From NCBI GenBank assembly GCA_009602725.1, contig WELB01000081.1:10204-56416 (forward strand): a DNA stretch of 46,213 nt, given 5' to 3'. The translations under genes were made by a program, and so were the position numbers. The notes under the pieces were generated by a model. The model worked only from the letters and a program-made list of their open reading frames with translations. It did no database searches and was not told where the DNA came from. The first letter of the stretch is position 1. Each line of letters opens with the position of its first letter. The DNA comes from Spirogloea muscicola. Taxonomy: Eukaryota > Streptophyta > Zygnematophyceae > Spirogloeales > Spirogloeaceae. This document shows positions 4,560-46,213 of the stretch, piece by piece.

Positions 4560-4815
4560 CGTTTTAGGGTTCCGGAGGAGGGCTCTCTGCTCCCTGGCCC
4601 AGCCCCCTTCCTCGTACTTTGTTCATTCTTTTCTGGGCTGGCTTTTCCAGCCCCTATCCTCAGTGGGCGAGCCCTTCCCTCGCTACTGCCTCTGGCTCTG
4701 GCCAGGAGAAGAAAGGGCTCGCCAATTGAGGATAGGAGCTGGAAAAGCCAGCCCAAACAAGAGAAGTGCGCGCCCAAAAAAGAATGAACAAAGTACGAGA
4801 AGGGGGCCAGGGGAC
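4560..4815. repeat. Head-to-head retroelement 3' ends forming an imperfect inverted repeat
   Basis: A plus-strand 3' end (about 4593-4683) contains the hairpin GGGCTGGCTTTTCCAGCCC at 4635-4653, followed by a TCAGTGGGCGAGCCC block. A minus-strand 3' end of the same type (about 4700-4812) carries the mirrored hairpin near 4738-4754. Together they could fold into a long imperfect stem. No coding tail remains in this pair. It lies about 60-100 bp upstream of the GH3 start codon. Confidence 0.75.
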
Positions 4816-4821
4816 CCACTT

Positions 4822-5268
4822 CCAGGAAAAAGTGGCTCTCCCAATGGGGGCAAGGGCTTTGAGAAGCCAGCCCGAAAAGAATTGACAAGGTTCGAAGGGG
4901 CCTAACTACGCGCTAAGCAGCGACCTGCGGGGCCTGAAGAGGCTATGGCAGAACGGGGGAGGATGGACCACTCAGTAGTTACGAGTGAGGAGCCTCACAT
5001 CCGACAGACTAGCTGCCGGAAAACTATCCCCCTGACGAAAGCCGGAGGCCGCAGCGAGAGCACGGCCAGCACGCAGATGCAAGGCGTGGGCCATGGACCG
5101 CTGGAGGGAGACGGACAAGCGCATACGTATACCTGAGCCCACGAGCCAGCGGCGTTGAAGTCAGCCGGCTCATCGCGCCTGCGGGACAGCGCGCCGTGCA
5201 AGCTTGGCCAACAGGTCGAGCCAGTGGGATCCGAGAGCCCCCGTGCACGTCCACAGCCACTTGTTCTT
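4822..5268 (-). mobile_element. 5'-truncated non-LTR retroelement copy, subfamily C
   Basis: Read on the minus strand, this matches the end of the retroelement ORF at 13368-15075: the segment with VDVHG and a Leu-Ala-Arg-rich stretch, a region like FNAAGSWAQV, then the tail ending LLTRNY-stop near 4972. A 3' UTR follows, ending GGGCTGGCTTCTCACAGCC-type and GGGAGAGCCAC near 4825. Several frameshifts break the frame. The same subfamily recurs at 15145-15235, 15283-15515 and 16497-16895. Confidence 0.78.
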
Positions 5269-5335
5269 TCTTTTCCTGGAAGGGGGTCCCCTGGCAAGGA
5301 CTGACCGGAGGCCAATTTGAGCTAGTAGAATGTTC

Positions 5336-6078
5336 AGGCTTCCAGGAGCCTAGCTTCTCTGACCTGAGGCAGCTGAGCAGGGGTTATTGAGTAATACGTA
5401 GCTTCCCCTGGCCCCCTTCTCGTACTTTGCTCCTCCCTTTTCGTAGCTGCTTCGTTTCTTTTTGTGCTTGTTACTCTTCGTACTTCCCCTGGCCCCTTCT
5501 CGTCCTTGGTTCATTCTTTTTTGGGCTGGCGTTCTTGTTGTGCTTGTCTCTCTTAGCGCTTCCCCTGGCCCCCTTTTATATTATGTAGCCTTGTTTAGTT
5601 TGCACTCGCCTCTGCTTGAACTGTGTATTGGCTTGAATTGGCCTCCCTTTTCATTTCATGCGCCCCGCGCGCCTTTCTCTTTTTTTTCTCTCTTCTCGTA
5701 CCTTGCTCCTCCTTTTCTGGGCTGGCTTTTCCAGCCCCTATCCTCAATGGGCGAGCCCTTCCCTCGCTGCCTCTCGGGACCCACTTCCAGGCCTCCCTTT
5801 TCATTTCATGCACCCCGCGCGCCTTTCTCTCAGGAGCCTAGCTTCACTGACCTGAGGCTGCTCAGCAGGGGTTACTGAGTAATACGTAGCTGCTTTCTTT
5901 CTCGTTGTGCTTGTTTCTCTTAGCGTTCCCCCGGCCGGCCCCCTTCTCGTACCTTGCTCCTCCTTTCTGGGCTGGCTTTTCCAGCCCCTATCCTCAATGG
6001 GCGAGCCCTTCCCTCGCTGCCGCTGGGGACCCACTTCCAGGCCACCCTTTTCATTTCATGCGCCCCGCGCGCCTCTCT
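5336..6078 (+). mobile_element. Array of short retroelement copies (subfamilies B and D)
   Basis: Two B copies begin GGAGCCTAGCTTC at 5345 and 5833. Each holds only about the last 15 codons (SDLRxLSRGY-stop) and a 3' UTR with GTAATACGTAGCTGC, CTTCTCGTAC and a hairpin (5719-5737 belongs to another B end, 5969-5987 to the second copy). A D-type 3' UTR (TATTATGTAGCCTTG ... GCGCGCCTTTCTCT) at about 5576-5690 is interrupted by a B 3' end. Its terminal stretch of about 40 bp reappears at 5790-5830 and, less exactly, at 6040-6082. Near 5523-5530 a hairpin is cut after GGGCTGGC and joined to another B fragment. Confidence 0.78.
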
Positions 6079-6079
6079 C

Positions 6080-6512
6080 TCAAAGCAAGAGCGGCCAGAT
6101 TAACTGGTGGCTGGGAGAGGCCAGCCCAAAAGAATGGACAAGGTCTGAAAGAGAAGTGCGCGCCCATCGAAAAGAGGGGCTGGCTAAGCCAGCCCAAAAA
6201 AGAATGGACAATGTCCAAAGCCTAAGAAAGAGGAGCCGAAGAAAGAAGAAGAACAGAAAAGCGCGCCCATAGAAAAGAGAGGCTGGCCAAGCCAGCCCAA
6301 AAAAGAATGGACAATGTCCAAAGCCAAAGCAAGAGGAGCCGGAGAAAGGACTACACTACAACATACTGCAGAACACAGAAACGATGCAGAGGAAAGCTCA
6401 GTACCCACGAGTGAGCAACATCAGGTCCGAGTAGCTCGCTGCAGGGAAAGAGGCGCTTCGCCGAGACCCAGAGGCGGCGGCCATAGCACGGCCTGCACGC
6501 GTATGGAGGGCC
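6080..6512 (-). mobile_element. Minus-strand nest of subfamily E and A retroelement ends
   Basis: From left to right this holds an E-type 3' end (rev-comp of CCAGTTAATCTGGCCGC with a GGCTGGCCTCTCCCAGCC hairpin near 6100), then two A-type 3' ends with GGCTGGC..GCCAGCC hairpins (near 6178-6195 and 6281-6300), then an A-type body. The A tail (TRGY-stop) is read on the minus strand, with its stop at 6398-6400. The coding part continues to about 6510, where RAxAAASG-like residues are still visible. Confidence 0.75.
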
Positions 6513-6582
6513 CGCCCAAGGACTACACTGAAGGAGTCAGAGTGCTAAGGACTGAGACAGCAGTGAGCGAACTCTCAGTAAG

Positions 6583-6945
6583 TCTCAGAAGCCTAGCTTC
6601 TCTGACCTGAGGCTGCTCACAAGCAAGGGGTTACTGAGTAGTACGTAGCTGCTTTGATTCTCGTTGTGCTCGTTGTTTCTCATAGCGCTTCCCCCGGCCC
6701 CCTTCTCGTACTTTGCTCCTCCTTTCTTGGGCTGGCTTTGCCAGCCCCTCTTTTCTATGGGCGCGCTCTTCTTCCCTCGCTGCCTCTGGGGACCCACTTC
6801 CAGGAGCCTAGCTTCTCTGGCCTGAGGCAGCTGAGCAGGGGTTACTGAGTAATATGTAGCTGCTTTGTTTCTCGTTGTGCTTGTTTCTCTTAGCGCTTCC
6901 CCCGGCCCCCTTCTCGTTTCTCGTACTTTGCTCCTCCTTTCGTTG
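6583..6945 (+). mobile_element. Two further short subfamily B copies
   Basis: One copy starts at 6588 with GAAGCCTAGCTTCTCTGACC and has a damaged tail. It carries the hairpin GGGCTGGCTTTGCCAGCCC at 6729-6747 and ends in GGGACCCACTTCC. It is followed directly by a second copy starting at 6803 whose tail reads SGLRQLSRGY-stop (stop near 6846). The second copy loses its hairpin where the next element begins. Confidence 0.77.
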
Positions 6946-7200
6946 GTCGTGCCCTTGCAGCAGCCTCTGGCTTGCGCAGCGGGGTTGCTCTTCCTCCCCT
7001 CAGCTCATCTGACTTCCTACTGCTGACACGGGGTTACTAAGAGCTCCCTGGCTGTCTAGCCCGTGGCTCCGTCATGAAGACCTGTATGCATCTGGCTGGC
7101 TTTCACAGCCGCTCTTTTAATATCAGCAGCCGCTTCCTTCTTGGGCTGGCTTTTCCAGCCCGTCCTCAATGGGCAAGCCCCCTTTCCTCTGTGAGGGAGC
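6945..7200 (+). mobile_element. Truncated retroelement tail and 3' UTR abutting the IRE1 start
   Basis: The last 31 or so codons read GRALAAASGLRSG ... SSDFLLLTRGY with stop TAA at 7038-7040. The 3' UTR carries GGGCTGGCTTTTCCAGCCC at 7143-7161 followed by TCCTCAATGGGCAAGCCCC. It ends about 20-60 bp before the IRE1 ATG at 7221, so the IRE1 5' UTR or core promoter overlaps or directly follows this remnant. Its tail sequence differs from subfamilies A-C. Confidence 0.75.
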
Positions 7201-7220
7201 CGCCCCCCGGGCATACGGCC

Positions 7221-12530: not shown

Positions 12531-12629
12531 GGCTGCCAGGGAGGGGGGGGTTAGCGGCGTACTGGCGCTGGGGAGGGGCCAAAACCCCGATAGGAAGTAA
12601 GCCCCCGCAAGCTCAGGCTCATGCTTGGC

Positions 12630-13290
12630 ACCAGAAAGCTGTTCGAGCCTTAGCCGGTGCCTTGCTATGGCTTTTGGCGCACCCACGTCAACCGTGTCTG
12701 GCTGGGCCACGTCCAGCGCGGAGCGCAAGAAGGAGCGGCACTACCAGGACCATCCCCGAGGGGACCATCTTTGCCCGTGTGCCATGGATATCCACGGCGG
12801 CTACGGCGTGAAATGGTCCTCCCTGATCCAGCATCTGGCCCGGCTGGTTGATGCGCGTCGTAAAAGTCGGGGGGCAGCTTGGGCCACTCCAGCATTCCAC
12901 AGGCCTTAAGTGCATATTATAGAATGCGGCTCTCGCTTTGTTTGCTGCGCTCGCAAGCATTGGCTCTTCATCAACGTGCAGGGCGCGCTCTAAGTCAGGC
13001 CTCCGGCTTTCGTGGCGGCGCTCCAGCTCCCCAAGTTAGCTTGTCCGATTTGTTTGTGCTCTCCCGTGGGTACTAATGTCACCTTAGGCACCTTAGTTTA
13101 GGTCTCTGTATTATGTAGCCTTGTTTAGTTCGCTTTCGCCTCTGCTTGAACTGTATATTGGCTTGAATTGGCCTCCCCTTTCATTTCATGCGCCCCGCGC
13201 GCCTTTCTGCTGCTATGGCTCATCAAGCTGCCGTCCGTTGTTCGAGCATCAGTTAGCGACCTCTGCGTGCTGGCTCGTGGTTACCGAGCG
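12630..13290 (+). mobile_element. 5'-truncated retroelement copies, subfamily D
   Basis: The first copy begins with ERKKERHYQDHP (near 12718), matching the Lys-x3-Tyr region of the nuclease domain. It continues through MDIHGGYG and LIQHLARL, shifts frame, and ends QRAGRALSQASGFRGG ... SDLFVLSRGY with its stop near 13074. Its 3' UTR (TATTATGTAGCCTTG to GCGCGCCTTTCTG) runs to about 13210 and has no GGGCTGG hairpin. A second tail fragment, SVSDLCVLARGY, follows at about 13246-13283 with a mutated stop. Confidence 0.75.
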
Positions 13291-13367
13291 GGTCCGCTTG
13301 GCAGCAGGCAGGCGGTGTACGCCTGTCAATGTGCTTGCCCTTGTACTCGGAGGCCAGGCCCCTTGTG

Positions 13368-15075
13368 CCGACATACGCTGATGACACCACGCTGGTGGGG
13401 AAGCCAGAGGAGGTCACAGCTGCCTTTGACACCCTCCAAGTGCAGCTGAACGCGATCGGCCTGGATATTCGGGCAGACAAGTGTAGCGCCTTGTCCCCTC
13501 AGGGCCTGCCAGCCCACCTGCGCCTGCCCGAGGGTTGCCAGACACCAGCCGGGGGCCTCACCCTCCTCGGCGTCCCCCTAGGCGCACCTGCCTTCGTGAC
13601 GGAGCAGCTGCAGGCGCGGCTGCAGGAACACCTCCGGCCAGCGGACCGTCTCCACACGCTCCACGACATGCAGCTGGCGACTGCGATGTTGACACGGTGC
13701 ATTGCGCAGCGGCCACAATATCTGGCCCGCACCATCCCCCCCCTCGTCGGCGGTGAAGGCAGCGTATGCGGCCTTTGACTCCGGCATCCTGGCGTCCGCG
13801 GCCACCCTGGTGCAGCACCCCGCGTTCCTCACCACACCAGCTGCGCTGCTGCAGGCTAGCCTGCCGATCAGCCGGGGCGGCATGGGATGCCGCTCAGTTG
13901 CCCGCGGCTGCGAGGCGGCCTACATGGGTAGCTGGGCTCAGGTGGCAGCTCCAATGTGCCAGAGGTTCCTCGTGTACGGCCAGCGCCTCCTGGAGCGGGT
14001 GGCAGCTGAGGTGGAGATCGGTCAGCTGCCTTTTCAGGTTGCCCTCCGCTCTGCCCGCGACGGGCTCCTGGCGGTCCACCCCCACATGTCGGAACAGGCC
14101 GTTCCTTTCATCCACCTCGCCCACCCCCCAGACCGGCGTGCCCAGGCACGCTTCTCGGCGCTGGTTGAACAAGCGGCCTCCGACCAGGTGGTGGAGCTTC
14201 TCCCTTCGGCTGACCTACGAGGGCGCGCCCGGCTGCTCTCAGCCTCCTCCCCTGGGGCGGCGGCGTGGCTATCAGCGCTTCCACTCCACGCGGCGCTCAC
14301 TATGCCCGACGAGGTCTTCCGGACGGCGGTCCACAGGCTCTTGGGCCTCCTCCCCCCCTGCCTCGTGGGCGTCACTCAATGCGAGTGCGGTGCCCGACAC
14401 GTTGATCCCGCGGAGCTGGCCGCCCACATGCTCCGTTGCGCCCACGGGGGCGAGCGGACCGCTTCCGACGACCTCCTCCGCGACGGTATGCAGGGGGTGT
14501 TTTCGGAGGCGGGCTTCAAGGTCGCGGTGGAGCACTCCTCCATCATGCCCATCAAGCTGGGCGCGGACGGCCAGCCCCATACGCGACGAGCCGACCTGGT
14601 CGCCATCCCGCCCGGCGGCGGTCCCCGCATCATCGCTGACGTGGTGACAACTGACTGCATCGACTCCGCCAATCCCACCAGATCGGCGTCGTTTGCAGGG
14701 CACGCAGTCGGCCAGGCGGCCCGGGGCAAGGAGCGAAAATATGCTGATCACCCGGTGGGGGATGAATTCGCGGCCCTGGCGATGGATGTACACGGGGCTT
14801 TCGGCAGCCGCTGGCTGGATTTTATTCAGCGGCTTGCCCGCCAGGCCATTGACCGGTGGCCGGGTCTGCCAGGGGCGATGCCCGGCTTCAACGCTGCCGG
14901 TTCGCTCGCACAAGTCTTCCGCATGCGCCTGGCCGTATCGCTTCAACGCTCCCTTGCCCACGCCATCCACACGCGTGCAGGCCGTGCTATGGCCGCCGCC
15001 TCTGGGTCACGGCTGAGTGCCTCTTTCCCTGCAGCGAGCTACTCAGACCTGATGTTGCTCACTCGTGGGTACTGA
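13368..15075 (+). mobile_element. Longest non-LTR retroelement copy: RT fragment, zinc knuckle, restriction-like endonuclease
   Basis: The copy starts inside the reverse transcriptase at TYADDTTLVGK (RT catalytic box, near 13370). It continues through RADKCSAL and LTLLGVPLGAP and then shifts frame near 13740. From 13745 to 15075 one frame is open. It includes AAYAAFDSGILASA, a zinc knuckle with Cys-Glu-Cys, His and Cys at about 14380-14440, then a nuclease core of RRADLVAI and IIADVVTTDC. It ends with Lys-x3-Tyr (KERKY), MDVHGAFGSRWLDF, and the tail SYSDLMLLTRGY-stop. This knuckle plus R-x-D ... D-V ... K-x3-Y order is that of the C-terminal endonuclease of R2/CRE/Dualen-type elements. The 5' half of the element (N-terminus and most of the RT) is missing. 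The stop codon is at 15073-15075. Confidence 0.83.
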
Positions 15076-15144
15076 GCTTTCCTCTGCATCGTTTCTGTGT
15101 TCTGCAATGTTTTGTAGTGTAGTCCTTTCTCCGGCTCCTTTCTT

Positions 15145-15235
15145 CAGAAGAAGTGGCTCTCCCAATGGGGCCAAGGGCTGTGAGAAGCCAGCCCGAAAAG
15201 AATTGACAAGGTTCGAAGGGGCCAAACTACGAGCT
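15145..15235 (-). mobile_element. Subfamily C 3'-end fragment inserted in the A 3' UTR
   Basis: On the minus strand this is the last 90 bp or so of a C copy: CCCCTTCGAACCTTGTC, hairpin GGGCTGGCTTCTCACAGCC, GGGAGAGCCACTTCTTCTG. It is flanked by the direct repeat CTTTCTT (15138-15144 and 15236-15242), a probable target-site duplication. It is extremely 5'-truncated, as expected for target-primed reverse transcription. Confidence 0.8.
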
Positions 15236-15282
15236 CTTTCTTCGGCTTTGGACATTGTCCATTCCTTTTTGGGCTGGCTTTG

Positions 15283-15515
15283 CTCTCGCTGCGGCATCCG
15301 GCTTTCGTCAGGGGGATAGTTTACCGGCAGCTAGTCTGTCGGATGTGAGGCTCCTCACTCGTAACTACTAAGTGGTCCATCCTCCTCCGTTCTGCCATAG
15401 CCTCTTCAGGCCCCGCAGTCGCTGCTTAGCTCGTAGTTTGGCCCCTTCGAACCTTGTCAATTCTTTTCGGGCTGGCTTCTCACAGCCCTTGCCCCCATTG
15501 GGAGAGCCACTTCTT
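15283..15515 (+). mobile_element. Subfamily C copy inserted in the hairpin loop of the A element
   Basis: The insert begins in the coding tail (GCGGCATCCGGCTTTCGTC), passes the LLTRNY-type stop near 15368, and ends with the C-type hairpin near 15470-15488 and GGGAGAGCCACTTCTT. It is flanked by CTTTG at 15278-15282 and 15516-15520. Removing it and one repeat restores a perfect A hairpin, GGGCTGGCTTTGCCAGCCC. The insertion point is therefore the loop of the 3'-terminal hairpin of a related element. Confidence 0.85.
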
Positions 15516-15562
15516 CTTTGCCAGCCCCTCTTCTCTATGGGCGCGCACTTCCCCCTTGTACT

Positions 15563-15960
15563 CAGCGGCTTGCCCGCCAGGCTATCGACCGGCTGCCGGG
15601 TCTGCCAGGGGCGATGCCCGGCTTCCACGCCGCCGGTTCGCTCGCCCAAGTCTTCCGCATGCGCCTGGCCGTATCGCTTCAACGCTCCCTTGCCCACGCC
15701 GTCCACACGCGAGCAGGCCGTGCTATGGCCGCCGCCTCTGGGTCTCGACGGAGTGCCTCTTTCACTGCAGCGAGCTACTCAGACCTGATGTTGCTCACTC
15801 GTGGGTACTGAGCTTCCCTCTGCATCGTCTATGTGTTCTGCAGTGTTCTGTAGTGTAGTCCTTATTCCGGCTCCTCTTTCTTTGGCTGTGGACATTGTCC
15901 ATTCTTTTTGGGGCTGGCTTTGCCAGCCTCTCTTCTCTATGGGCGCGCACTTCTTTCTCT
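15563..15960 (+). mobile_element. Second subfamily A copy, 5'-truncated
   Basis: It starts CTCAGCGGCTTGCCCGCCAG, equivalent to QRLARQAID of the longest copy. It runs in one frame through FRMRLAVSLQRSLAHAVH and RAGRAMAAASGSRRSASF to SDLMLLTRGY-stop (15809-15811), and is then followed by a full A 3' UTR with hairpin (near 15913). Over its length it is nearly identical to the end of the 13368-15075 copy, which suggests recent activity. It abuts the end of the previous A 3' UTR. Confidence 0.82.
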
Positions 15961-16305
15961 TGATGCCCGGCTTCACCGCCGCCGGTTCGCTCGCCCAAGT
16001 CTTCCGCATGCGCCTGGCCGTATCGCTTCAACGCTCCCTTGCCCATGCCGTCCACACGCGACCAGGCCGTGCTATGGCCGCCGCCTCTGGGTCTCGGCGG
16101 AATGCCTCTTCCCTGCATCGAGCTACTTAGACCTGATGTTGCTCACTCGTGGGTACTGAGCCCTCTGCATCGTCTATGTGTTTTGCAGTTTTTTGTAGTG
16201 TAGTCCTTTTCCCGGCTCCTCTTTCTTTGGCTTTGGACACTGTCCGTTCGTTTTTAGGCTGGCTTTGCCAGCCCCTCTTCTCTATGGGCGAGCAATTTCT
16301 TGTAC
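15961..16305 (+). mobile_element. Third subfamily A copy, 5'-truncated
   Basis: It starts TGATGCCCGGCTTCACCGCC, about 50 bp further 3' in the ORF than the previous copy, directly after that copy's 3' end. The tail is close to the other A copies, but a frameshift separates SGSRRNASS from the final TRGY block (stop 16157-16159). The 3' UTR ends with the hairpin GGCTGGCTTTGCCAGCC near 16257 and CTATGGGCGAGCAATTTC. Confidence 0.8.
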
Positions 16306-16307
16306 TT

Positions 16308-16496
16308 GGAGCCTAGCTTCTCTGACCTGAGGCTGCTTAGCAGGGATTACTGAGTTATACGTAGCTGCTTTGTTACTACTTGTGCTTGTTTTTCTTAGCG
16401 CTTCCCCTGGCCCCATTCTCCTACTTTGTTCCTTCTATTTTGGGCTGGCTTTTCCATCCCCTATCCTCAATAGAAGAAGTGGCACTCCTATCCTCA
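16308..16496 (+). mobile_element. Short subfamily B copy
   Basis: It begins GGAGCCTAGCTTCTCTGACC, the same point as the B copies at 5345, 5833, 6588 and 6803. The tail reads SDLRLLSRDY-stop. The 3' UTR holds TACGTAGCTGCTTTG and CTTAGCGCTTCCCCTGG, then a hairpin with one mismatch (GGGCTGGCTTTTCCATCCC, near 16442-16460). Confidence 0.78.
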
Positions 16497-16895
16497 GCGG
16501 TCCATGGCCCACGCCTTGCATCTGCGTGCTAGCCGTGCTCTCGCTGGGGCCTCCGGCTTTCGTCAGGGGGATAGTTTTCCGGCAGCTAGTCTGTCGGATG
16601 TGAGGCTCCTCACTCGTAACTACTGAGTGGTCCATCCTCCCCTGTTCTGTGTCTCAGTCCTTAGCACTCCGACTCCTTCAAACCTTGTCCATTCTTATGG
16701 GCTGGCCTCTCCCAGCCACCAGTTAATCTGGCCGCGCTTGCATTCATGCCATAGCCTCTTCAGGCCCCGCAGTCGCTGCTTAGCTCGTAGTTTGGCCCCT
16801 TCGAACCTTGTCAGCTCTTTTCGGGCTGGCTTCTCACAGCCCTTGCCCCCATTGGGAGAGCCACTTCTTCTCATCCTCAATGGGCGAGCCCTTTC
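16497..16895 (+). mobile_element. Subfamily C copy interrupted by a subfamily E end, just upstream of CWC27
   Basis: The tail MAHALHLRASRALAGASGFR ... SDVRLLTRNY-stop ends near 16625. An E-type end (CCTTGTCCATTC, hairpin GGCTGGCCTCTCCCAGCC, CCAGTTAATCTGGCCGC) lies at about 16680-16745. The C-type 3' UTR then resumes (CATAGCCTCTTCAGGCCCCG) to GGGAGAGCCACTTCTTCTC near 16873. A short B-like piece (TCCTCAATGGGCGAGCCC) ends about 100 bp before the CWC27 start codon. Confidence 0.77.
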
Positions 16896-19657: not shown

Positions 19658-20238
19658 CTCCCCACTAGCTCAGGGTGCTGCCATATGTTGCCTCTGTGAC
19701 TCATTAGCCATGAGTGTGATGCTCCTATCCTCATGACGAGTCAGCGAGAGCCTCGGACTTCCATGCCAAATGGGGCTGCACACCAGCCCCCGTGTGGTGC
19801 AAAGCAGATGCCAACATGATTGTGGAGTGGAGATGCATCCACATAGGAGGCAAGAGATTGCTTGTGCAGAATAAGGGGGGGGGGGTTCCCCACCTGGGTT
19901 TGGCTACCACTGTGGTAAATCTTTCAGAACCAGAAACAACACTTGGAACGAGTGCCTTTGTAAGCATGGAGAGTGCAATTGAACCTATCACAAGTTGAAC
20001 CCCTGGTGGCAACATGTGAGAGTGTGATGCTCCACGTCAGGGGGCTGACCTGGGTCATTGCCCATTGGCTGCCACTCCTATTATGCCACAAGAGCGCAGT
20101 GCGACAGTGCATGAACACGGCGAGCCTTGACCGAAATATTGTGCGCACTCTGGCTGCATTCGGGCTTGACCTCAAAATTGTCGGTAACCAGTGCCAAAGG
20201 ACAACTGGCGGCCCAGTACAAGCGTACTAGGCAAATGC
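19658..20238. other. Convergent intergenic gap
   Basis: This 0.58-kb stretch lies between the 3' ends of CWC27 and FBPase. A G-run lies near 19877-19888. No coding signal, RNA gene or retroelement piece was recognised. Confidence 0.5.
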
Positions 20239-21651: not shown

Positions 21652-22599
21652 NTTATCATGAGTTGTCTTGTTGCTCTTAAATGGTGGCTGCGACGCTGTT
21701 GAAGTGTTGTGCAACTTCCTAAACAGTTCTGCGAGGAATGGCATTTCAGAGATTTGGCGAGTATGCGGGATGGGCACATAACGCTCTCTTCATTGCACAG
21801 CTGGCTTCGACCAGGTCAGCTAAGCATTTCCTTCAAAGTGCATTTGTGATGGTGATAGCTCTTGACTTGCACTCTGTGCAACAATTGATCTGATCTGCAC
21901 ACTTTCTGCAGCAAGAGCAAGTGTTAGGTGGTTGCCACTTGTCAGACCAGATAAAGCATCATGATACGTGACTTACGCTAGGTCATCTGCAACTGCATGT
22001 AGCTGCTGATTAAGGGTACAGGATTAGGAATATCTGAAAAAGCTCTTCTCTGAGCTTTATACTGAGCTTTTTGTTGAGTTTTATTTCATACTGAGCTTTT
22101 TGACCTATGTCATCAAGCCCATATGTCAGACATGCTGTTACCAGGGCTCCTTTCTTCATGCTCTGTTGGTTTAAATTTGTTCTCACTTCGCATCTGTTCC
22201 ATCTGTGACAGGACTGAGCTGCCGGTGGACCTTTTGTCGGGCAAGCAACAGAAGAGGGCAGCAAGCAAAGTGCTGCTCAAAGGTGACCAATAGCAATTGG
22301 GCCGGCACTTCTCCTCTGCCTAGTGACACCAGCTTTGACAAAGAACTGAGGTTCTCATCCTTCATTCTTCAAACTTATATTCGTTCCTTCTTCTGGGCTG
22401 GCCAGTCACAGCCATCGCCTTCTACTGGAGAGGACTCATTTTTACGGGCGTTGAAAGTGTGAACCTTTGTATGCCATATGGCAATATGGGCTCTTGGTGG
22501 CACAAGCGCCGTATGTCTGCTGACCCACTAGGCGCCCCTACTGTTTTTCCAGTTAGACCTTGCATTGCAGTGCTCATGCGTTGAGTAGCTACACTAATG
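21652..22599. other. Divergent intergenic region between FBPase and SDR, with one retroelement remnant
   Basis: The region is AT-richer than both flanking exons. A near-direct repeat (CATACTGAGCTTTTTG-like) occurs around 22050-22105. A retroelement 3'-end remnant lies at about 22376-22445: GTTCCTTCTTCTGGGCTGGC, CACAGCCATCGCC, TACTGGAGAGGA. The missing 5' exons of FBPase could have been here but I cannot find them. Confidence 0.55.
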
Positions 22600-24512: not shown

Positions 24513-25161
24513 CCATCGCCAAAAGGGGGGGAAACAGAAGGAAGGTCAAAGAACACTTCACATGATACGCTATAAAGGGTCATTACTGTCCTCAATGTCG
24601 GCCACAATGGCGGCGTTGTCAGGCTCTGTCTCCTTTTGCCTTCCATTGGATGAATTGGATTGACCTCAATGCTATCATCCCTCTACATGCCGTGCCGTGC
24701 ATTGGTCGAGATGAGGTCCCTCCTTACAGTCCAGTTGGTATTTGGCACGTGCTGCGGTCGTCATACGCAAGGTTTCCTAGACGCAATCGTGCCCTGAGGC
24801 GTGGGGACTGTGTTCACACTTACTTCACATGAAATTGCTGGCGTGGTGCGTGCTCAAAGAAACACTTTACATCTACAGCAGCAAACAATGCATCGTGACG
24901 CCGTCTGTTTGCGAAGGATCTGGACTGCAGGTACTTTGAGCTGTAGAATTGTTGCATGAGTGACTGCCACATGGACAATGACCTCCCTGCACTTGCTAGC
25001 AGTGCTGGCACCCTATGGCAACACAGTGCGGCTAGAGAACATGGCAGCTGCCTCCAACCTTGACACACCAGCTGCTCCAAGCCAGTGAGCTGGGTCGTCG
25101 TGGGCCGAGGGGTAGGTGTAGGCTTCCGATTTTGAGTTGGAACGTAAGTTTCAGTACCACT
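24513..25161. other. Convergent intergenic gap
   Basis: This 0.65-kb stretch lies between the SDR stop and the JmjC-gene stop. Open frames here have no recognisable domain, and no retroelement tail or hairpin is present. It is probably 3' UTR sequence from both sides. Confidence 0.45.
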
Positions 25162-29375: not shown

Positions 29376-30345
29376 CGTTCACGGCATCGATGACGCGCGG
29401 CCAGGCCAGAGTTGCAGTGGCTCTGGAGATGGCCAGCTCGAGGCGGGCTCGGCCTGCGTTTGCAACGCAGCTCTGACTGCGACTTACGGCCAGCACTTCA
29501 CAGCCTGCGGGGTGAGACAGCAGGTAAGTTGGACACCAGCGTTCATAGCCCGGGCTCTTCGAGCCTTGTGCTACGCAGTGAAGGTGTGCTGCAGCCAACC
29601 CCCAACCCAAACGCCCGAGTGTTTTGGCACTCAGCACTGGTAAGAGATGGTAGCTAGGCTAGCTGGACCAGGACCGCCATTCCTTCAAGCCCCACCTTTC
29701 TACCAGAGATGTGTTCCTCTCTCTCGTATACACTACCATCAGAGATCCTGAGAACAAGCTCGCTGGCAGAAGCCATCCCTTGCTTTATAGAGCCAGACTC
29801 CGCAAGCCTGTGGGACTGAGTCCTCTGCTCAAGCAACATGAGCCTCAGCATCAGCACCCCTAGCTGCTCCAACGGAAGACCTTATCAAGCTGAGGCATCA
29901 CAGTCACGAGATGCCAAGCGGATGACCGACTCACGCCAACTGCCTGCAATGCTACACTTGATGCAAACGTCTGCCACGCTGCTGACATTAATCTTGAAGC
30001 GATCGAAATGATAATGATGCATCATAGTCACTGAACGCATACGTTCCCAAGTCAACATCCAACCGTCTTGTCAGCCCACTGAGATTGTTCATCTGCAAGC
30101 ATCAGTCTGCAAATACGTGCTGCCCAAGTGCATTGACAGAGCATTCAGCAGATAATCATGCGCAGGGGCGACGATTATACATATAGGTTCCGAAGCTGGG
30201 AAGGCATACAGATGATAATGCTAATTCCCTGTCGTAGTCAAGACTACAAGACCTCCAACTGACTGTACATTCTATGCGCGCCTTGCTGAGGAGCTTGTAG
30301 CTTGTAAGGATTGTCTCACAACCACTCCATAGTTTGCCCTCTTGC
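29376..30345. other. Gap between JmjC gene start and FREE1-like gene end
   Basis: This is about 0.97 kb of AT-richer sequence: the 5' region of the JmjC gene and the 3' UTR of the FREE1-like gene. I recognise no coding segment, structural RNA or retroelement piece in it. Confidence 0.45.
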
Positions 30346-33249: not shown

Positions 33250-33345
33250 TTTCGTTTCCTGTTTCCTTTCCTTGGTTTGGGAAAGCCAGCCCGACAGGAC
33301 AGGACAGGATGGACAAGGCCCGAAGGGGCCAGAAAAGAGCGCTAC
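33250..33345 (-). mobile_element. Retroelement 3'-end remnant upstream of the FREE1-like gene
   Basis: On the minus strand it reads GGCCCCTTCGGGCCTTGTCC, a short CCTGT tandem run, then GGGCTGGCTTTCCCAAACC. This is the family 3' end with a decayed hairpin. It lies about 55 bp upstream of the upstream-most FREE1 ATG. Confidence 0.65.
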
Positions 33346-33424: not shown

Positions 33425-34140
33425 GAGTTAGGGCCGGGTTGCACTGGGTCGGGCGGCCGCGCCGAAGGGTACGCGTTGCGCGTTGTATGGAATGACCGTG
33501 CGTTACATTGGCGCGGGCCCCGGTTGTGGCCGCACGCCACGAGGGCGCCACATCGGACGCTGACTTGCCTGGTGGGCGCGTTAAAGGAGGAAAACGCGCG
33601 CGTTTGCCACGAGGGCGGCCGAAATCGGGACCACCTCCCGAGGTGGTCTCGATTCCGACCCCCCCCCCCCCACCCCGGCCCCGCCCGGAAAGGGACAGCT
33701 GGCGCCAACCCCCTCCAGATACACGAGAATTCAAACACGATCCGCATGGGCAGGCGGCCTCTGCCTCCGTGGCAGCGACACCCCCCTTGACCCGGCGGTC
33801 AAATCAATTCTGGCCGATCGTCCCGGGGTAACCCGGCCCTGAGGGCTGCGTTACGCCGGTCGGTCGGCCTCGCCGAGGGGTACGTGTCGCGCGTTGCATG
33901 GAATGACCGGTGTTACACGGGCGCGGGGCCGGTCGTGGTCGCACACCACGGAGGCGCCACATAGGACGCTGACCAGGACGCCTTTTGGGTGCGTTACCCT
34001 CCAAAAACCCCAAAATTCTGTTACCCATCCGCACGTGCAGGCGGCCTCGGCCTCCGTGGCAGCGACACCCCCTTGACCAGGCGGTCAAAACGATTCTGGC
34101 CGACCGACCCGGTGTAACCCGGCCCTTAGCTGAGACTTAC
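33425..34140. repeat. Two diverged tandem repeat units
   Basis: Unit 1 (about 33425-33835) and unit 2 (about 33836-34120) share landmarks in the same order: GGGTACGYGTYGCGCGTTG, ATGGAATGACCG, GGCGCCACATMGGACGCTGA, GCAGGCGGCCTC, TCCGTGGCAGCGACACCCCC, TCTGGCCGA and GTAACCCGGCCCT. Unit 1 has about 120 bp extra in the middle, including a strong inverted repeat (33617-33660) and a C-run. No protein is recognisable. The nature of the repeat is unknown. Confidence 0.72.
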
Positions 34141-34184: not shown

Positions 34185-35050
34185 TACTTCCTTGCAGGCC
34201 GCGCTTTGGCTGCTGCGGCTTTCGCCGTTGTGACACTTCTTCGGCTGCAGCCCCCTTTGACGTGCGGCTGCTGCTAAAGTGATCATTGATAAGGACGTGA
34301 TTGAAACAGAGGTTAGTGAGTGCTTTGTGGCTACCTGATTCATCGTGTGCTTCAGAGCTTTCTCTGGCCCCTTCGAACTTTGATATATTATTTCTGGGCT
34401 GGCCTCTCACAGCCACTGCCCTTTACTGGAGGCGTCTTCTCTTCAAAGCTTTGAGCAATACCTGCTGTAGCCACTTGCATAGCTGTGTGTCTTCCACAGC
34501 CATCGTACCCTGCGAGGAAGGGCTTTGCAAAGGGATGAGAGAGAGGTTCGGCAGTCGCTGGCTGGACCTTCAGCAGCGGCTTGCACGGTGGGCAATCGAC
34601 GTCGGCAGGGACAGCGACGTGGGCTGCCCAGCTTCAACGTCGCCCGGTCGCTTGCCCAGGTGTCCGTATGCGGCTAGCCAATGCCAACGGTAGCAGGCTC
34701 ACGCAATGCACTTACGGGCAGGCCGTGCCATAGCTGCTGCTTCTGGGTCTCGTCGGGGTGCCTCTTTCAAGCGCTCCCAGGCACTCGCGATACACCAGCG
34801 TGCAGGTCGTGCATTAGCACAGGCTAATGGCTTCCGTGGTGGTGGTTTGGCGCCTCAGCTTAGCTTGTCAGATATGCATGTGCTCACTCGGGGATATTAG
34901 TGTCCCCCTTAGCCAGCTCATTACCCAGTTAACAGGTCATTTGTAAGGCTTGAATTGGCCTCCCTTTCAATTTCATGCGCACCGCGCGCCTTCTCTCTCT
35001 TTTCAGCTGCAAATTACTCCGACATGCGGCTGCTGACTCAGGGTTCTTAA
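34185..35050 (+). mobile_element. Series of degenerate retroelement tails and 3' ends
   Basis: Four decayed pieces. (1) AGRALAAAAF, a frameshift, then FDVRLLLK (34193-34275). (2) A 3' end with GGGCTGGCCTCTCACAGCCA near 34398-34417. (3) A longer copy starting FGSRWLDLQQRLARWAID (near 34549), frameshifted, with RAGRAIAAASGSRRGASF and then a second RAGRALAQANGFRGG ... SDMHVLTRGY-stop near 34900. (4) A D-type 3' UTR piece (GAATTGGCCTCCCTTTC, 34950-34995) joined to a tail NYSDMRLLTQGS-stop near 35049. Confidence 0.72.
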
Positions 35051-35340
35051 GCTCTCATCCGCCGTAGTCTCTTGCATAGCTATGTAATACTGGCGCCTTT
35101 CGCCCCTTTGGACCTTGTGTGTTACATTGAGCTGGCCTCTTTCTTCGTGAGCTGCTCCATTGCTCCCATCCGCAGTGGTTATCTGCTCTCCGGCTTCTTG
35201 GACCTTGTGGTATCTCAATTTCACAGCCATCACCCCTCTTTCGAATAGCTACTGGAATGTCACAGATAGTGCCCCTTTTGAAAGAGCTTCTTCCCTTCTC
35301 GACCTGGTGCTTATCACGCTGGAAAGAAACAGCGCTCTCT

Positions 35341-35412
35341 AAGCAAGGCAATGGCTGTGAGAGGCCAGCCCAAAAGAAATGAACAAGGTTCGAAACGGCC
35401 GGAAATTGCAAA
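35341..35412 (-). mobile_element. Retroelement 3'-end remnant
   Basis: On the minus strand it reads TTTCGAACCTTGTTCATTTC, then TTTTGGGCTGGCCTCTCAC and AGCCATTGCC. No coding part is attached. The sequence from here to about 36000 holds nothing I recognise. Confidence 0.65.
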
Positions 35413-36009: not shown

Positions 36010-36660
36010 ACAAGCCGCGCTGTTTCTCTACCCACCCTGGATGTAGCGATGTTTACATGGCTGGAATGTCAGTGCCGCAGGAAAGGTCTGACAGGTACCT
36101 GGAGATTAGACCCCACGTTTGGCCGACAATGACTAGGCTGTCAGTGCCGTAGGAGAGGCTTGACATGTGCCTGGAGACGGGATTCTTTACCAGGCTGACG
36201 ACTGGGAGAATTGATTCCTTCCTCGAGCTGAGAGCGGCGCACCCCGGAGTCGTGACGCGCGAGACAGCCTGGTGCTGGCGCTGGTACGGCGAGGGGAAGC
36301 GGCAGCGGTGTAGACTACCTTGACGGCATCGTTAGCGGCCGTTGATTTTGACGTGGACAATAGACCGTCAGTTGCGATTGACGGGGCATTGACGGGGGAC
36401 CGTCCGGTGTGGTGGTGGTTGTCCGTGTGGTCCACGTCAACATCAGCGGACGCTAGCGATGCCGTTAAGGTAGTCTACACAGCTGCAGCCTCCTTTCGCC
36501 GTTTCAGCGCCAGCACCAGGTTCCTGCGGCACGGACAGTAGATTTGTTGTCAGCCGGATGAGGTGTCTAGTCTCCAGGCATCTGTCAAGCCATTCCAGCG
36601 GCACTGACAATCTGGCCATATGAGCATCGTGACACTGCATACACTCCTCATTACACTCTA
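36010..36660. mobile_element. Foldback (long terminal inverted repeat) element
   Basis: Left arm about 36040-36355 and right arm about 36440-36650 are inverted copies. Shared blocks from outside in are TGTCAGTGCCGC, TGACAGRTRCCTGGAGA, CCTGGTGCTGGCGCTG, GTGTAGACTACCTTRACGGC and TTGACGTGGAC. The spacer (about 36356-36435) is GC-rich with repeated GACGG motifs. The left arm contains an internal duplication of the GTCAGTGCCG block. There is no transposase frame. It is a non-autonomous element by structure. Confidence 0.72.
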
Positions 36661-36894: not shown

Positions 36895-36990
36895 CTTGTA
36901 GAGCAAGCGCGGCCAGATGAACTGGTGGCTGGGAGAGGCCAGCCCAACAGAATGGACAAGGTCTGAGGAGTGAACAAACAATAAATACCG
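36895..36990 (-). mobile_element. Subfamily E retroelement 3' end
   Basis: On the minus strand it reads CAGACCTTGTCCATTCTGTT, hairpin GGGCTGGCCTCTCCCAGCC, CCAGTTCATCTGGCCGCGC. It matches the E ends at about 6085-6150 (minus) and 16680-16745 (plus). No coding tail remains. Confidence 0.7.
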
Positions 36991-36999
36991 TATAAGGCG

Positions 37000-39900
37000 T
37001 GCTATAAGCTTGGTAAACAACAGCCCTGCTTGATGTTCCTGAGGTACACCTCTCATTTGCACGTCATACGACTGAAATGGAAGTCGAAGTCACCCAACCT
37101 ACAGCAATGAAACTATTTAAGAAGTAGACTATAGATATATTGGACTCTACCTCTGAGCCGTTGATCCTGCTTGCATTCTTACCATTAGAGGAGAGGAGTA
37201 TGCAAGGCAGATCCTCAGCAGACGTACTCTGGATTTGCATGTCACCAACCCCTTTCTGCTGCCTCACCATTTCTGACTCAGTGTCTTTTTGTGGCGATGC
37301 GTCCGACTTGAATTGTAGTGAATGCTTTCCTTGTCAGAAGAGCTCTGCTCATATTCCTGCTCACACAGTCAAATGGTTCACCAGAAGGGCTCTATGGACA
37401 CCTGTAGCACCGAGGAGATGTACCTGACCAGGATAATTTCTGGCCCCAAATGCCAAGCTCCAACCATACGAGTTCATAAGCGCTCGACGTTGGAGGTCGG
37501 GCATTTAGCAAATTTGCCATTGGAGACTCGATAACAGCCCAGGAGGAGCGAGATAAAGCGAGCACAGGTTGGAAACGGCGTCTGTAAATTTGCATTTCTG
37601 TATGCATACCAATACGCCTTAGTTAATGCACTTGCAGCAGGCCACAGAACGGTAGCAGGGGTGAATTTGGCTTCATGACAACGCACAATTTGAGCCGAAA
37701 TGAGCAGTCATAGCTGCTCGGACGGCCTTCCATCCCCCTAGCGTGCCAAGATCAGCATGCCCTCTGACACATTGCAATGTGTGCTAACCTCCTAATTTGG
37801 TAATTGGGCCCGTGCGTTCGTGGTCAAGGGCCTGATCATGTCGACATAAAGCTAGTGCCACAGCCCAAAAGCTCGCGTTATTGCCGAAAAGAGTGTACAG
37901 AAGGACAAGTCAACTGCTTGAGTTTCAAACATCAAACAATCTGGCAGAAGAAGTAGAGAATACCTGCTCAAAGCTCTAGAGTCGACTTTAGTGCTCTCTG
38001 TAGCCCTCATCAACAGTGCATTCATGGTCAATGCAGGCTGATGCTGTAACGTCCCCTCCCGTTTGGGCGTGCCAAACGGTACCGGTCAACTTTTACAAAC
38101 GGTGTCGTGCCATCGATACAAATGGTCCACCAACGGGATATCTCAGCGGTCCGAGGCCCTGAGGCTTTGTGCAGCGTGTCCACGTGGGTTCGTACCGCGC
38201 GTGCACGTAGGCATTTTTTCGGGAGTCATGCTCCGTCCGGGGTGGTATGGTGCGTCCCACCAGACCCTCCGAAGAGTCACCGCCTTTCAGCGGTGCCTTA
38301 GGGTAAGACTTCGGCTGCGCAGTATGCGCGAGTACGCGCCGTGAGCGCTGGCATTTCACTGTATATGGGGCTAGGCTCCAAAATCCCCTAGGTCCGAACT
38401 CCATTTAAAGGCGACGTACTAACCCCTGTTTGTGTAGAGGGATCAGGACGTCACAGAGGCTGCTCAGTTCGCCCTTGTCCACAACCGAAACGAAAAGCTG
38501 CTGGGAATTTGATCTACAGAAGCAGACATCAAGAAACCTACTTCGAGGAGCGTACCTCAAGGTGCAGCTGACCTGCAGGCAAGACACTCGGCAACATCTT
38601 CTGAGCATAGCCGAAGGATATGTGGATACCACGACTGCAGCATGCCAGCCTGAAATCCCAGCTTGCAAGCCTAGTTGGGCTTGGTACTATGGGCAAGGTT
38701 TTGTCGCTGCCTGACTCTGAGGCTCTTGTGCTTGTCAGAATCAAAAGCGCCTACCTTCTTCTCTATAGTCCATGTATCTGACTTCAGCTGCTCACTGACC
38801 AGACCAACAAAAGATGCCCCCTCTACACTCCACCCAAGCCCTTGGACTAACATCAGACTTCTCAGCCTTCAAGCACGTCAAACATCGTCTTACCTCCAAA
38901 ATTGACTCCTTGTTGTGCTTTCATAAATGCATGTGGAAATGAGGATCTGAGAACAGATCCTGCAACAAGAACTGTAAACATAAGCATGAGCAGCTTTGCG
39001 TCAGTGCCGAATGCTGCACTATCAATGCTGCACCCAGGAATGATTCTTCGTTCTTGGGCTAGGAGTTGCCGCAATGTTGAAGCAGTTGCTCCAAGCTTGT
39101 TGGCTTGCTCTGTAAACACTTAGGCCCATCTCTTGTCCAAGCCAGGACCTTCACTTCTTGGTACTGGGCACTGCGGGCTTTGACTACACCATCTGCTTGG
39201 CAATTTACAAGATAGCCCTACAGGTGGCACAACTAGCTACACTCCTTCCCTGTAAGACAGTTTTTAGGGTCGAGGATTGACTTTAGATTGAGCAGAGTGA
39301 CTGCCATTTGCTTTCAGCAAAATCCAGAAATGAAGGCTGGAAACTTATAAGATTTCATCTGTCCAATTGTCAGACATACGAAGCCGCTGCATTCAGTGCT
39401 TTGCAACTTGACGATTTGGACAGAAATTATGGAGGTGCTCTCACTAACTTGCAAACTTTCTCCATGCACTGGCTTGAGCACGACGTGTTGTCTGGGCTGG
39501 TGAATACTTGAGTACCACAGAAGCCATTCCCACTGCAATGTGATACCACTATTAAGGTCTAGCTTAGTTTCTGTCTTTGCCTATACGAACAAAATGCCTT
39601 GCTCATGTAGCGTGATTCTTCTAGCTCCTCAAGGAATGGAGTGTATATCAAGTGATGGAGGGCCTGTGTGGCTAAGTAGAAAGGCAAGCACACCGACATA
39701 TGTACATCACCTGCTGCTAAGCTGACCCGCTCAGTAAGCACATGTCAGCACATAGAGGTCGCTAACTGATGCCCGAACACTGGATGCCAATCGACATCAA
39801 GGATAGGAGCAAGAAAGCAAATGACATGAAAGGAAGGTACTGGAGCAGCACCTGCAGTAGTTTGTTTTGCAGTTTGGCAGAGAGGTAGAGTTGCACAAGG

Positions 39901-44300: not shown

Positions 44301-45440
44301 TGCCCGGGGCGGTGGTGCAATTTGCACACGGGTCTGTTCCTTGCCAGGTTGCTAGCTGAGAAGGTGGATTGAGCTGCGATAGCTTGAAATCTCGAAGAGG
44401 AGCATCTGTCACAGATGGTCAGCCAGTGGATTCTGAGCAAGTTGCAAAGTGGCGAAAGTTGAGGTGATGTCGAGTCACTTGACTCGTCTGCTATGACAAG
44501 ATCAACTTCGCCAAAGCACTGAAGCATTGTAGAGTTTGACGCACCATGACAATTGATTCAAGCACCTTACATCTTAGGTATTTGCATGCAACACGAGCTC
44601 GCTGACAGGGTGGTTCATCAGACAGCCACTTCGTCTTACGGGCACCACTGTGAAGAGTATCATAACCCTGTCAAAGCTGTCAGCCTCTCAGTGGCGGCAA
44701 GAAGCTCACAATCTGGGCTGGTTGTCTGGAGCAACTTCCTTGACGGGCCCCCACTTCCAGATGCAGCAGCAACCTGTGCCAGAGGCACCACCTGGTGCCA
44801 CAATCAATGCACGATAAAGACGACATATGACTCTATGCTGGTGGGGCAGCCAGAAGCTTGCTGCTGTTCGTCCAAGCCAAGGCGTGTGTTTCGCGGCTGC
44901 TGTGCCAGCACAGTGGGGGCTTGCAGCAGCAGGCGTGTCATGGGCGCAACATTGGCCAAGTAGCTCTGTCACAAGTGTCTCCTGAGCTCAGTGAGCAGAC
45001 TTCTGCATGATACCATGATGACCACCACAGTTCAGGACCGAAGGAGAGCAACACCACGGTGGCATCTCCACGACTGGAACGCTCAGGTGCACTACCGAGA
45101 AGATAAGGACTGCTCGGGCGGGGAGAGGTCTAGAGCTGCTCACATCCTCGGTGGAGGTGGCATGCTGCTGCAGGGCTGCCGCCACGGTCGCTGCAGGTGG
45201 AGATGAGAGAGAGTCGTCAGATGGAGGCTTGTAGTGGAGCTTCGAAAACCCAGGGTCCTCCTGGTCAGCATGCCCTGGAAGGCCCAGGGAATGCATAGGA
45301 TGCGTGCTGCGTGCTAAAGCGTGAACCCCAAAGCCTGCAGCCCGCGCGGAGAGCAGCGCGCGAGCGCTGTCCAGCGCGGGGGCGCGGGGCGCCTCAACGG
45401 CGGCGAGCAGCAGCGCCAGCGCCGCGGGCGCGAGCGCCAT
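41389..45440 (-). CDS. Secreted leucine-rich-repeat protein with hydroxyproline-rich C-terminus
   Basis: A putative signal peptide starts at 45440 (MALAPAALALLLAAVEAP). An LRR N-cap exon near 44400-44265 reads LATWQGTDPCANCTTAPG and SCAWYGITCD. LRRs of the xLxxNxLxGxIPxxIGxLxxL type then occur about one per exon: near 44100, 43860 (GNRLFGQIPSSIGSLHNL), 43530 (NNSLNGPIPTSIGNLKNL), 43145 (YNLLTGEIPSSINALTKL), 42800 (DNKLSGPLPSTLNRLTGL), 42610, 42205 and 41965 (NGNELNGTIPASLGTSLKKL). The last exon adds NDNHFSGSFPMSLIPLI and a PPPPSPPPPPPPSPPQPP run, ending FGR-stop at 41389. The proline run suggests a cell-wall glycoprotein resembling LRR-extensins. Exons between 45440 and 44530 are not well defined, and a donor in the Pro run could extend the gene downstream. 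Confidence 0.75.
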
Positions 45441-45539
45441 GGCGCCGGGGCGGGCGCGTGGGCGGGGCGGCGGGGAGGAGGTGGCGGCTCTGGACCAGCC
45501 CCCGGCCCCTTTCGGACGAGCTCACGTTCCAAGGAAGGA

Positions 45540-45625
45540 GGTTGCTTAAGAAGGCATTCTTGTTCCTGGGCTGGAGACGGTCACAGCCATCGCCCGCTGC
45601 TGGAAGAGTCGTGCTTCCTGACGAC
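45540..45625 (+). mobile_element. Retroelement 3'-end remnant upstream of the LRR gene
   Basis: CTTGTTCCTGGGCTGGAGAC, then GGTCACAGCCATCGCC, TGCTGGAAGAGTCGTGCTTC. It resembles the remnant at 22376-22445. The hairpin keeps GGCTG and CAGCC with a longer loop. It starts about 100 bp upstream of the LRR gene ATG. Confidence 0.65.
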
Positions 45626-45663
45626 GAGCTCACTTCCCTTCTTGGACGTGGGCCCGCCACGAG

Positions 45664-45783
45664 AGAAAGGCGCGCGGGGCGCATGGAAGGAAAAAGGGAG
45701 GCCAATTCAAGCCAATACACGGTTCAAGCAGAGGCGAGTGCAAACTAAACACGGCTACATAATACAGAGACCTAAACTAACTT
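45664..45783 (-). mobile_element. Subfamily D 3'-UTR fragment with 13-bp target-site duplication
   Basis: On the minus strand this is the D 3' UTR (TTAGTTTAGGTCTCTG to CGCGCGCCTTTCTCT), close to 13085-13208. It is flanked by a perfect direct repeat GGCCCGCCACGAG at 45651-45663 and 45784-45796. Only the last 120 bp or so were copied, as in target-primed reverse transcription. Confidence 0.83.
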
Positions 45784-45796
45784 GGCCCGCCACGAG

Positions 45797-46009
45797 GGGG
45801 CCAAGTGGGGCGGAAGGGCCCATAAAGCCACGCCACAGGTGCAGATGCGATGCGGTGCTGCTGTGGATGCGAGCGTGGCGGGGCGTGGCGCTAGTGGCAA
45901 AGCCCTGCCGGCCCGCGACCCGCGGGCGCCGGCGGCTGCCGGCGGCGGCCGACTTCCCGGCAGCCCGCCCGGCCGGCCCGCACGCGCGCTCCACCTGTCG
46001 CGGCGTGCT
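45797..46009. other. GC-rich stretch without recognised feature
   Basis: The stretch is GC-rich (GCCGGCGGC-type runs near 45925-45960). Open frames on both strands look like composition effects. No domain was recognised. Confidence 0.4.
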
Positions 46010-46213
46010 CGCCTCCTGCCCACTTTCTCCTGGGCTGTCCAGATTACAGCCGTCGCCCTCTCCTGGAAGCGCCTTCTCCCTTTGCAAAGCCAGTGAAAAG
46101 CAGCTTCTCCTTCTTCTCTTTCTTTCCTGTCAGTCTCGCTGCAGCCGTCCATGGCACGCGCGTTGCATCTGCGTGCCGGTCGCGCAGATGCAACGGCAGC
46201 CTTCTCTGGCTCT
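46010..46213 (+). mobile_element. Retroelement 3' end followed by a truncated coding tail, cut by the window edge
   Basis: GGGCTGTCCAGATTACAGCC (46033-46052) with GTCGCCCTCTCCTGGAAGCG is a family-type 3' end. After it, from about 46148, the tail MARALHLRAGRA begins, matching the LAHAVHTRAGRA segment of other copies, and runs off the window. A perfect 12-bp inverted repeat (46162-46173 and 46183-46194) lies within this tail. Confidence 0.65.

Follow-up and report, generated by a model that had tools for sequence, protein, structure and literature searches.

Why do remnants of a retroelement lie upstream of gene starts, and why are they missing where two genes end against each other? The question is raised by a stretch of 46,213 nucleotides from Spirogloea muscicola (contig WELB01000081.1, hereinafter C81, positions 10204-56416; the whole stretch is designated the window), which belongs to an assembly of 153 Mb in 471 contigs. 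A preliminary description of the window attributed the arrangement of remnants of a putative non-LTR (non-long terminal repeat) retrotransposon either to integration guided to promoters or to selection. The asymmetry between the 5′ and 3′ sides of genes is supported and extends outside the window, although all samples are small; targeting of promoters is not shown. We consider it somewhat more probable than the alternatives together that the asymmetry arises mainly from selective loss of copies after genes and their persistence in the upstream spacer, rather than from aimed integration.

Element content of gene flanks outside the window

Codon-model gene finding, applied to 20 random pieces, lacked the power to annotate individual genes, and flanks anchored at domain edges were used instead; they start neither at start nor at stop codons and include some coding sequence and perhaps introns. 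Sample 1, with a selection rule fixed beforehand and one haplotype per gene intended, contains 1.2-kb flanks from UBC, Ras and proteasome domain matches, 14 on the 5′ side of genes and 14 on the 3′ side. Sample 2, added after the first result had been seen, contains six 5′ and eight 3′ flanks of 800 bp from mitochondrial carriers. Three of the 20 fetched 5′ flanks were left out as more than half N, leaving 17 usable ones, together with 22 3′ flanks, some of which begin at matches ending 10-15 residues or more short of the domain end.

Within 800 bp, element is present in 7 of 17 usable 5′ flanks but in only 1 of 22 3′ flanks (Fisher p 0.013; one-sided permutation p 0.015), and the difference is similar for all fetched flanks (7/20 versus 1/22, Fisher p 0.018). 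Element accounts for 13.0% of bases on the 5′ side (95% interval 4.2-24.3) and 1.7% on the 3′ side (0-5.0). In random 10-kb pieces it occupies 15,827 of 137,614 bases, or 11.5%, with same-piece matches left out (11.7% with them); restricting the count to the 16 pieces that contain over 3 kb of sequence yields 11.6% (interval 7.1-16.3). Thus, the 3′ flanks lie about 7-fold below the genome average, while the 5′ flanks are close to it.

The emptiness of the 3′ flanks is the most striking feature of the profile, while the 5′ side climbs to a plateau. Specifically, in 200-bp steps from the domain edge (beyond 800 bp, sample 1 only), element content is 0, 11.6, 14.7, 25.5, 25.2 and 24.0% on the 5′ side, and 0, 0.7, 2.9, 3.1, 0 and 1.6% on the 3′ side. 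A strong enrichment within 200 bp upstream of starts, named in the preliminary description as the expected support, is absent: the first 200 bp at the N-terminal domain edge of 19 genes contain 0 element bases in 3,799, and the plateau of 24-25% extends from 600 bp outward. This profile, an avoidance of genes with a plateau and no promoter peak, fits selection better than aimed integration, although a narrow peak near starts could partly escape it because the anchor is a domain edge and not a start codon. Copies in 5′ flanks are no younger than others as judged by best identity (median 89.8 in 54 bins versus 88.8 in 323 bins elsewhere), which favours neither side.

In the first 14 + 14 flanks and in the genes of the window, gene starts are GC-rich and gene ends GC-poorer (5′ flanks 0.60-0.75, 3′ flanks 0.47-0.67). 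This gradient is a strand-independent mark of gene 5′ ends.

Distribution of remnants in the window

Gene limits in the window were placed by hand, with start codons inferred. Six gene assignments are backed by Pfam matches at the described places and strands, namely ATP11, GH3, protein kinase (IRE1 position), cyclophilin (CWC27), FBPase and, below its cut-off (21.0 versus 26.6 bits), SDR. The HMA-like, FREE1-like and LRR pieces have no Pfam family above cut-off, and their names are labels kept from the preliminary description. Remnants were located by self-comparison and by the 3′-end hairpin of the element (LINE, long interspersed nuclear element), and the features are as follows.

4591..7190, no strand: nest of 5′-truncated LINE 3′ ends of several subfamilies in both orientations, GH3/IRE1 divergent gap
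12610..13350, plus strand: LINE 3′-end pieces, HMA-like side of the HMA-like/CWC27 gap
13257..15072, plus strand: longest element piece, with a reverse transcriptase end (YADD), a cysteine/histidine motif and a restriction-like-endonuclease-like domain
14606..16873, no strand: nest of 3′ ends of subfamilies A-D, ending about 120 bp short of the inferred start of CWC27 (16992)
22388..22450, plus strand: short 3′-end remnant, FBPase/SDR divergent gap
33270..33345, minus strand: degraded 3′-end remnant about 150 bp upstream of the FREE1-like start, by eye only, without library match
34362..35412, no strand: remnants in a tandem gap, 1.2-2.3 kb upstream of the FREE1-like start
36902..36965, minus strand: 64-bp solo 3′ end, 3.8 kb upstream of the FREE1-like start
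45558..46213, no strand: remnants upstream of the LRR-like start (about 45437)
336..423, plus strand: remnant in the ATP11 intron (258-486, limits from frames), 83 bp by strict library count
39633..39795, minus strand: remnant inside the assumed LRR gene span
29587..29588, no strand: empty site where contig C236 has a 155-bp insert, 254 bp upstream of an inferred minus-strand start (29333)
1134..1630, no strand: convergent gap ATP11/GH3, no element, alignable with C236
10822..11573, no strand: convergent gap IRE1/HMA-like, no element, alignable with C236
19658..20238, no strand: convergent gap CWC27/FBPase, no element, haplotype indels of 68 and 82 bp without library match
24513..25161, no strand: convergent gap SDR/next gene, no element, alignable with C236

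With blocks merged by hand, element fills 2,600 of 2,714 bp, 3,296 of 4,467 bp and 66 of 1,037 bp of the GH3/IRE1, HMA-like/CWC27 and FBPase/SDR divergent gaps, respectively, 1,234 of 5,272 bp of the two tandem gaps, and none of the 2,479 bp of the four convergent gaps. Strict library matches reduce the divergent gaps to 2,313, 2,614 and 34 bp and leave the convergent gaps at 0. Consistent with the preliminary description, the two largest nests therefore make up most of the first two divergent gaps, the third holds a small remnant, and the four convergent gaps have zero element-library matches. Because the convergent gaps hold 28.3% of the element-free intergenic bases and there are only five or six independent loci, the significance of the window by itself is weak (empty by chance with p 0.19 for five loci, 0.14 for six).

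The hairpin GGGCTG-loop-CAGCC occurs 31 times on the two strands of the window versus 2.02 expected (sd 1.66; none of 100 shuffles reaches 31), and marks both nests and the small remnants at 22395, 34396, 35371, 36945, 45568 and 46032. One short hairpin-like match on both strands at 19773-19789, in the CWC27/FBPase gap, is at chance level.

Other parts of the description hold less well. The exons and introns followed were described as free of element, but the copy in the ATP11 intron and that in the assumed LRR span contradict this. Remnants were said to lie just upstream of starts; some do, about 30-150 bp away (the final element base of the GH3/IRE1 nest is about 30 bp from the inferred IRE1 ATG at 7221), whereas those in the tandem gap at 33.1-38 kb lie up to 3.8 kb from the FREE1-like start. 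The remnant reported close to that start is visible by eye but lacks a library match. By eye, and in few cases, the copy nearest a start often has its 3′ end toward the gene (7143, 16823 and 22395 on the plus strand, 33270 on the minus strand), with LRR (45568) as the exception.

Single Ns at 4297, 7250, 12512 and 21652 stand in or beside GC-rich first-exon DNA and look like assembly joins whose length is not known. The tandem gap also contains a second repeat with two internal near-copies (33447-34129), upstream of the FREE1-like gene. A foldback element with long inverted arms occupies 36042-36634; its first part has 27 other places at 75-81% identity among the matches listed (40 of 1,675 candidates scored). 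The LRR-like region 38024-39600 has further copies on C81 (63554, 74966, 76735) and on contigs C236, C24 and C27.

Comparison of haplotypes

In three conserved families, each gene is found 2-4 times with almost the same score, and C236 contains a 93% copy of the IRE1 region of the window; several diverged haplotypes or subgenomes are therefore probably represented in the assembly. C236 aligns to window positions 1-32756 in four blocks at 88-94%. About 23.5 kb are alignable, including genes, introns and the four convergent gaps, and contain four length differences of at least 25 bp. One of them is element, namely the 155-bp insertion in C236 at 29587; the other three (68, 82 and 25 bp) have no library-element match. 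The ATP11 intron remnant shows no indel of at least 25 bp, so both haplotypes carry it.

In the HMA-like/CWC27 gap, the window and C236 contain different nests, in which like pieces (12610..13350) are oppositely oriented; the nest comparison is that of this gap, as C236 has N in the GH3/IRE1 and FBPase/SDR gaps. The 64-bp copy at 36902-36965 is missing from contig C193, where its flanks abut with a 2-bp overlap, as read from coordinates. A search by coordinates for alleles of two 5′ flanks yielded none among the matches listed, only repeat copies. Contig C14, which matches over only 1.2 kb and is apparently joined at a GGC repeat, was not accepted as a clean allele. On C236 (L021, 2561-3541), the 5′ part of ATP11 is present twice, with a single N and an element piece in between, a possible assembly duplication.

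Identity of the element

A genome-wide search with 260 aa of the C-terminus returns 20,869 first-look candidates, of which 147 were scored; some lie in open frames about 1,400 aa long, a length that GC-rich DNA may inflate. With at most three mismatches, one hairpin pattern matches 3,766 places, compared with 0 for the reversed control, and these span contigs C1 to C38 among the matches listed (100 of 3,766). Element matches are present in 13 of 20 sampled 10-kb pieces, three of the 20 being all N. In an alignment of 12 divergent 3′ ends the GGCUG/CAGCC stem is invariant; as all five stem pairs are constant, RNAalifold gives no covariation signal either way. One segment (L026, 561-861) recurs at 32 places with 98-99% identity and ends at query 856-861, among the matches listed (40 of 5,855 candidates scored). 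This indicates a recent amplification with a precise 3′ end; the shared start at 561 may be the beginning of that copy itself.

LINEs with a restriction-like endonuclease (RLE) carry a KX2KY motif after a (P)D...D pair, and a CCHC knuckle CX2-3CX7-8HX4C before the endonuclease (PMC5678591). In the longest piece, which changes frame between 13693 and 13775, a PD...(D/E) pair followed by KX2KY is present as RRADL...IIADVV...KERKY, upstream of the C-terminus ...SDLMLLTRGY; P of PD is replaced by A or V. One other alignment row covers the whole motif (L003: RRVDL...LLLDVV...KELKY), and further rows cover parts of it (DVV...KAAKH, DVV...KERHY, KEIKY, KAAKH, KLQHY). The C/H motif of the element is CX1CX12HX3C, which does not fit the published spacing. 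Only the end of the reverse transcriptase domain (YADD) is in the window (RVT_1, E 0.0035, 17.5 bits versus a cut-off of 29.6). The C-terminal domain has no sequence match in PDB up to E 10, and its single-sequence structure prediction, with a predicted local distance difference test score (pLDDT) of 37.6, gave no usable fold. Since the C/H spacing misfits, the reverse transcriptase piece is short, and fold and PDB match are lacking, the motif match identifies a putative RLE-like non-LTR retrotransposon rather than a settled member of the RLE LINEs.

The apurinic/apyrimidinic-like endonuclease (APE) family PF03372 has 10 matches genome-wide (27/27 candidates scored) versus the 20,869 first-look candidates of the C-terminus, a comparison that is not strict, because many copies are 5′-truncated and a divergent APE could be missed. 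One of the 10 lies upstream of a C-terminal place on the same strand within 5 kb (contig C20, 4.35 kb), among 152 places listed; in 900 bp fetched between the two C20 matches, no reverse-transcriptase-like frame was seen by eye.

Growth of the nests

Another copy follows within 130 bp after 41 of 56 3′ ends, in the same orientation in 26 cases and in the opposite orientation in 15. When the next copy starts within 20 bp, same orientation prevails (15 versus 4). Many 3′ ends close in pyrimidine tails, for example ACTTCTTCTTC. The pattern indicates that nests grow head to tail, and a proposed mechanism is arrival of new copies at the tails of older ones. Template jumping by reverse transcriptase would yield head-to-tail junctions, as would insertion at the tail of an older copy.

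Selection or guided integration

The favoured reading, selective loss, proposes the following sequence of events. A very numerous non-LTR family inserts often as short copies, which in the loci read are 5′-truncated, retain the conserved hairpin at the 3′ end and close in a short pyrimidine tail. New copies would land at the tails of older ones and form head-to-tail nests, self-nesting helping the pile-up. Insertions in exons, 3′ flanks and terminators would be purged by selection, so that the tolerant DNA is mainly the spacer before gene starts. Copies persist there and are nearly missing over about 1.2 kb past coding ends, as shown in our small sample. Convergent gaps are short and probably consist entirely of 3′ untranslated region. 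Active aiming at promoters would not be needed.

Several results weigh against this reading. The prespecified sample 1 alone gives 6/14 versus 1/14 (Fisher p 0.077), falling to p 0.026 without its two mostly-N 5′ flanks, and extending the count to 1.2 kb for every fetched flank yields 7/20 versus 2/22 (p 0.062). The nests that differ between haplotypes in the HMA-like/CWC27 gap, and the haplotype-specific insertion 254 bp upstream of an inferred start, are likewise expected under guided integration. Some window remnants approach inferred start codons to within 30-150 bp, a zone in which strong selection would be expected.

Integration guided to open, nucleosome-free 5′ chromatin, namely a real preference for promoter regions, is the most serious competitor, though we regard it as rather unlikely. 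It agrees with the richer 5′ flanks and with the haplotypes, in that the HMA-like/CWC27 nests differ and the single element difference in the 23.5 kb alignable is near an inferred start. It also agrees with the higher GC of cluster-flanking DNA (0.596 versus 0.560 in random loci) and with the direction of coding sequence beside clusters: among 31 flanks with a GC content of at least 65% (window included), coding is directed away from the element in 17 and toward it in 4, one of which is the element's own reading frame, with 10 undecided. However, flanks below 65% GC lack such a bias (8 away, 11 toward, n=49), the second haplotype-specific copy, at 36902-36965, is 3.8 kb from the nearest inferred start, element content shows no peak at starts (0% in the first 200 bp, plateau beyond 600 bp), and the 5′ flanks hardly exceed the genome average.

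A further-reaching version, in which a dispersed RLE-type LINE is steered into the open spacer on the 5′ side of protein-coding genes, where its nests take the place of the promoters, we judge improbable. The GH3/IRE1 gap retains 114 bp of non-element DNA (blocks merged by hand) to 401 bp (strict library matches), and because it is nearly all element, transcription of both genes may need to begin within element DNA or pass through it. If nests act as promoters, one and the same gene pair would be under different element-built promoters in different haplotypes.

There is only a slim chance that the target is a sequence, with pyrimidine (TTC) tracts in the element tail, and perhaps in promoters, drawing the endonuclease and thereby producing both nests and promoter proximity. 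The pyrimidine tails and the 15 of 26 same-orientation neighbours that begin within 20 bp of the preceding hairpin accord with it, but template jumping gives the same junctions. Microsatellites are targeted by some RLE elements (PMC4640811). The empty site of 36902-36965 has no TTC-repeat run in the flanking DNA read, although one side reads GTTCACTCCTC.

An assembly artefact, in which repeat contigs joined at GC-rich first exons would create nests between divergent genes, is very improbable: the single Ns in or beside such exons, the Ns of C236 at or near matching spots and the apparent join of C14 speak for it, but the HMA-like/CWC27 gap is continuous from just past the N into CWC27 in both haplotypes, and the flank test spans many other contigs, where Ns in 5′ flanks lower the element count instead of raising it.

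Selective loss after genes thus remains the favoured reading. As several diverged haplotypes are probably present and empty sites are readable from them, a direct test of aimed integration versus selection near genes is possible.

Comparison with known systems

Zepp is an L1 LINE of the APE type. Zepp and ZeppL of green algae insert into existing copies in a nested manner, with frequent 5′ truncation, leading to arrays mostly of 3′ ends (PMC8226300). The element described here similarly stacks 3′ ends in tandem on older copies, with the same orientation dominant at 20 bp or less. Unlike Zepp, which forms strictly one cluster per chromosome in Coccomyxa (PMC8226300), has (A)n as its 3′ end (PMC3747384) and clusters at centromeres, it forms nests between genes on many contigs, with pyrimidine-rich tails and RLE-type C-terminal motifs.

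Dictyostelium TRE5-A offers a parallel in position. Its target in that gene-dense genome is a site about 47 bp upstream of tRNA genes (PMC5391098), and in both cases non-LTR copies lie upstream of genes. The earlier remark that a non-LTR element with its own endonuclease rarely aims upstream of genes is thus too strong. Unlike TRE5-A, the distances here are broad, with no fixed spacing to tRNA genes. Neither the window nor 21 fetched loci, several of them partly N, yielded a tRNA gene with ARAGORN in its bacterial setting, which intron-bearing tRNAs could escape; tRNA targeting was rejected. A literature search found no report of a pattern like the present one, which does not show that none exists.

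Dualen/RandI of Chlamydomonas are green-algal LINEs with an RLE, whose 3′ ends carry short repeats other than poly(A), tails that they share with some SINEs (short interspersed nuclear elements) (PMC3747384, PMC4640811). Dualen encodes both APE and RLE, whereas PF03372 is scarce here (10 genome matches, with the proviso that a divergent APE could be missed).

R2, R4, NeSL, CRE, HERO and Utopia share with the present element KX2KY after (P)D...D in the C-terminal domain, while its C/H spacing differs from that of RLE LINEs. R2, R4, NeSL and CRE are mostly target-specific, and HERO includes many non-specific families (PMC4640811). Unlike the former four, the family described here is dispersed. 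RLE-type LINEs are best known for strict target sites; here, a family with RLE-like motifs is dispersed and very numerous, and shows a strong bias between the 5′ and 3′ sides of genes.

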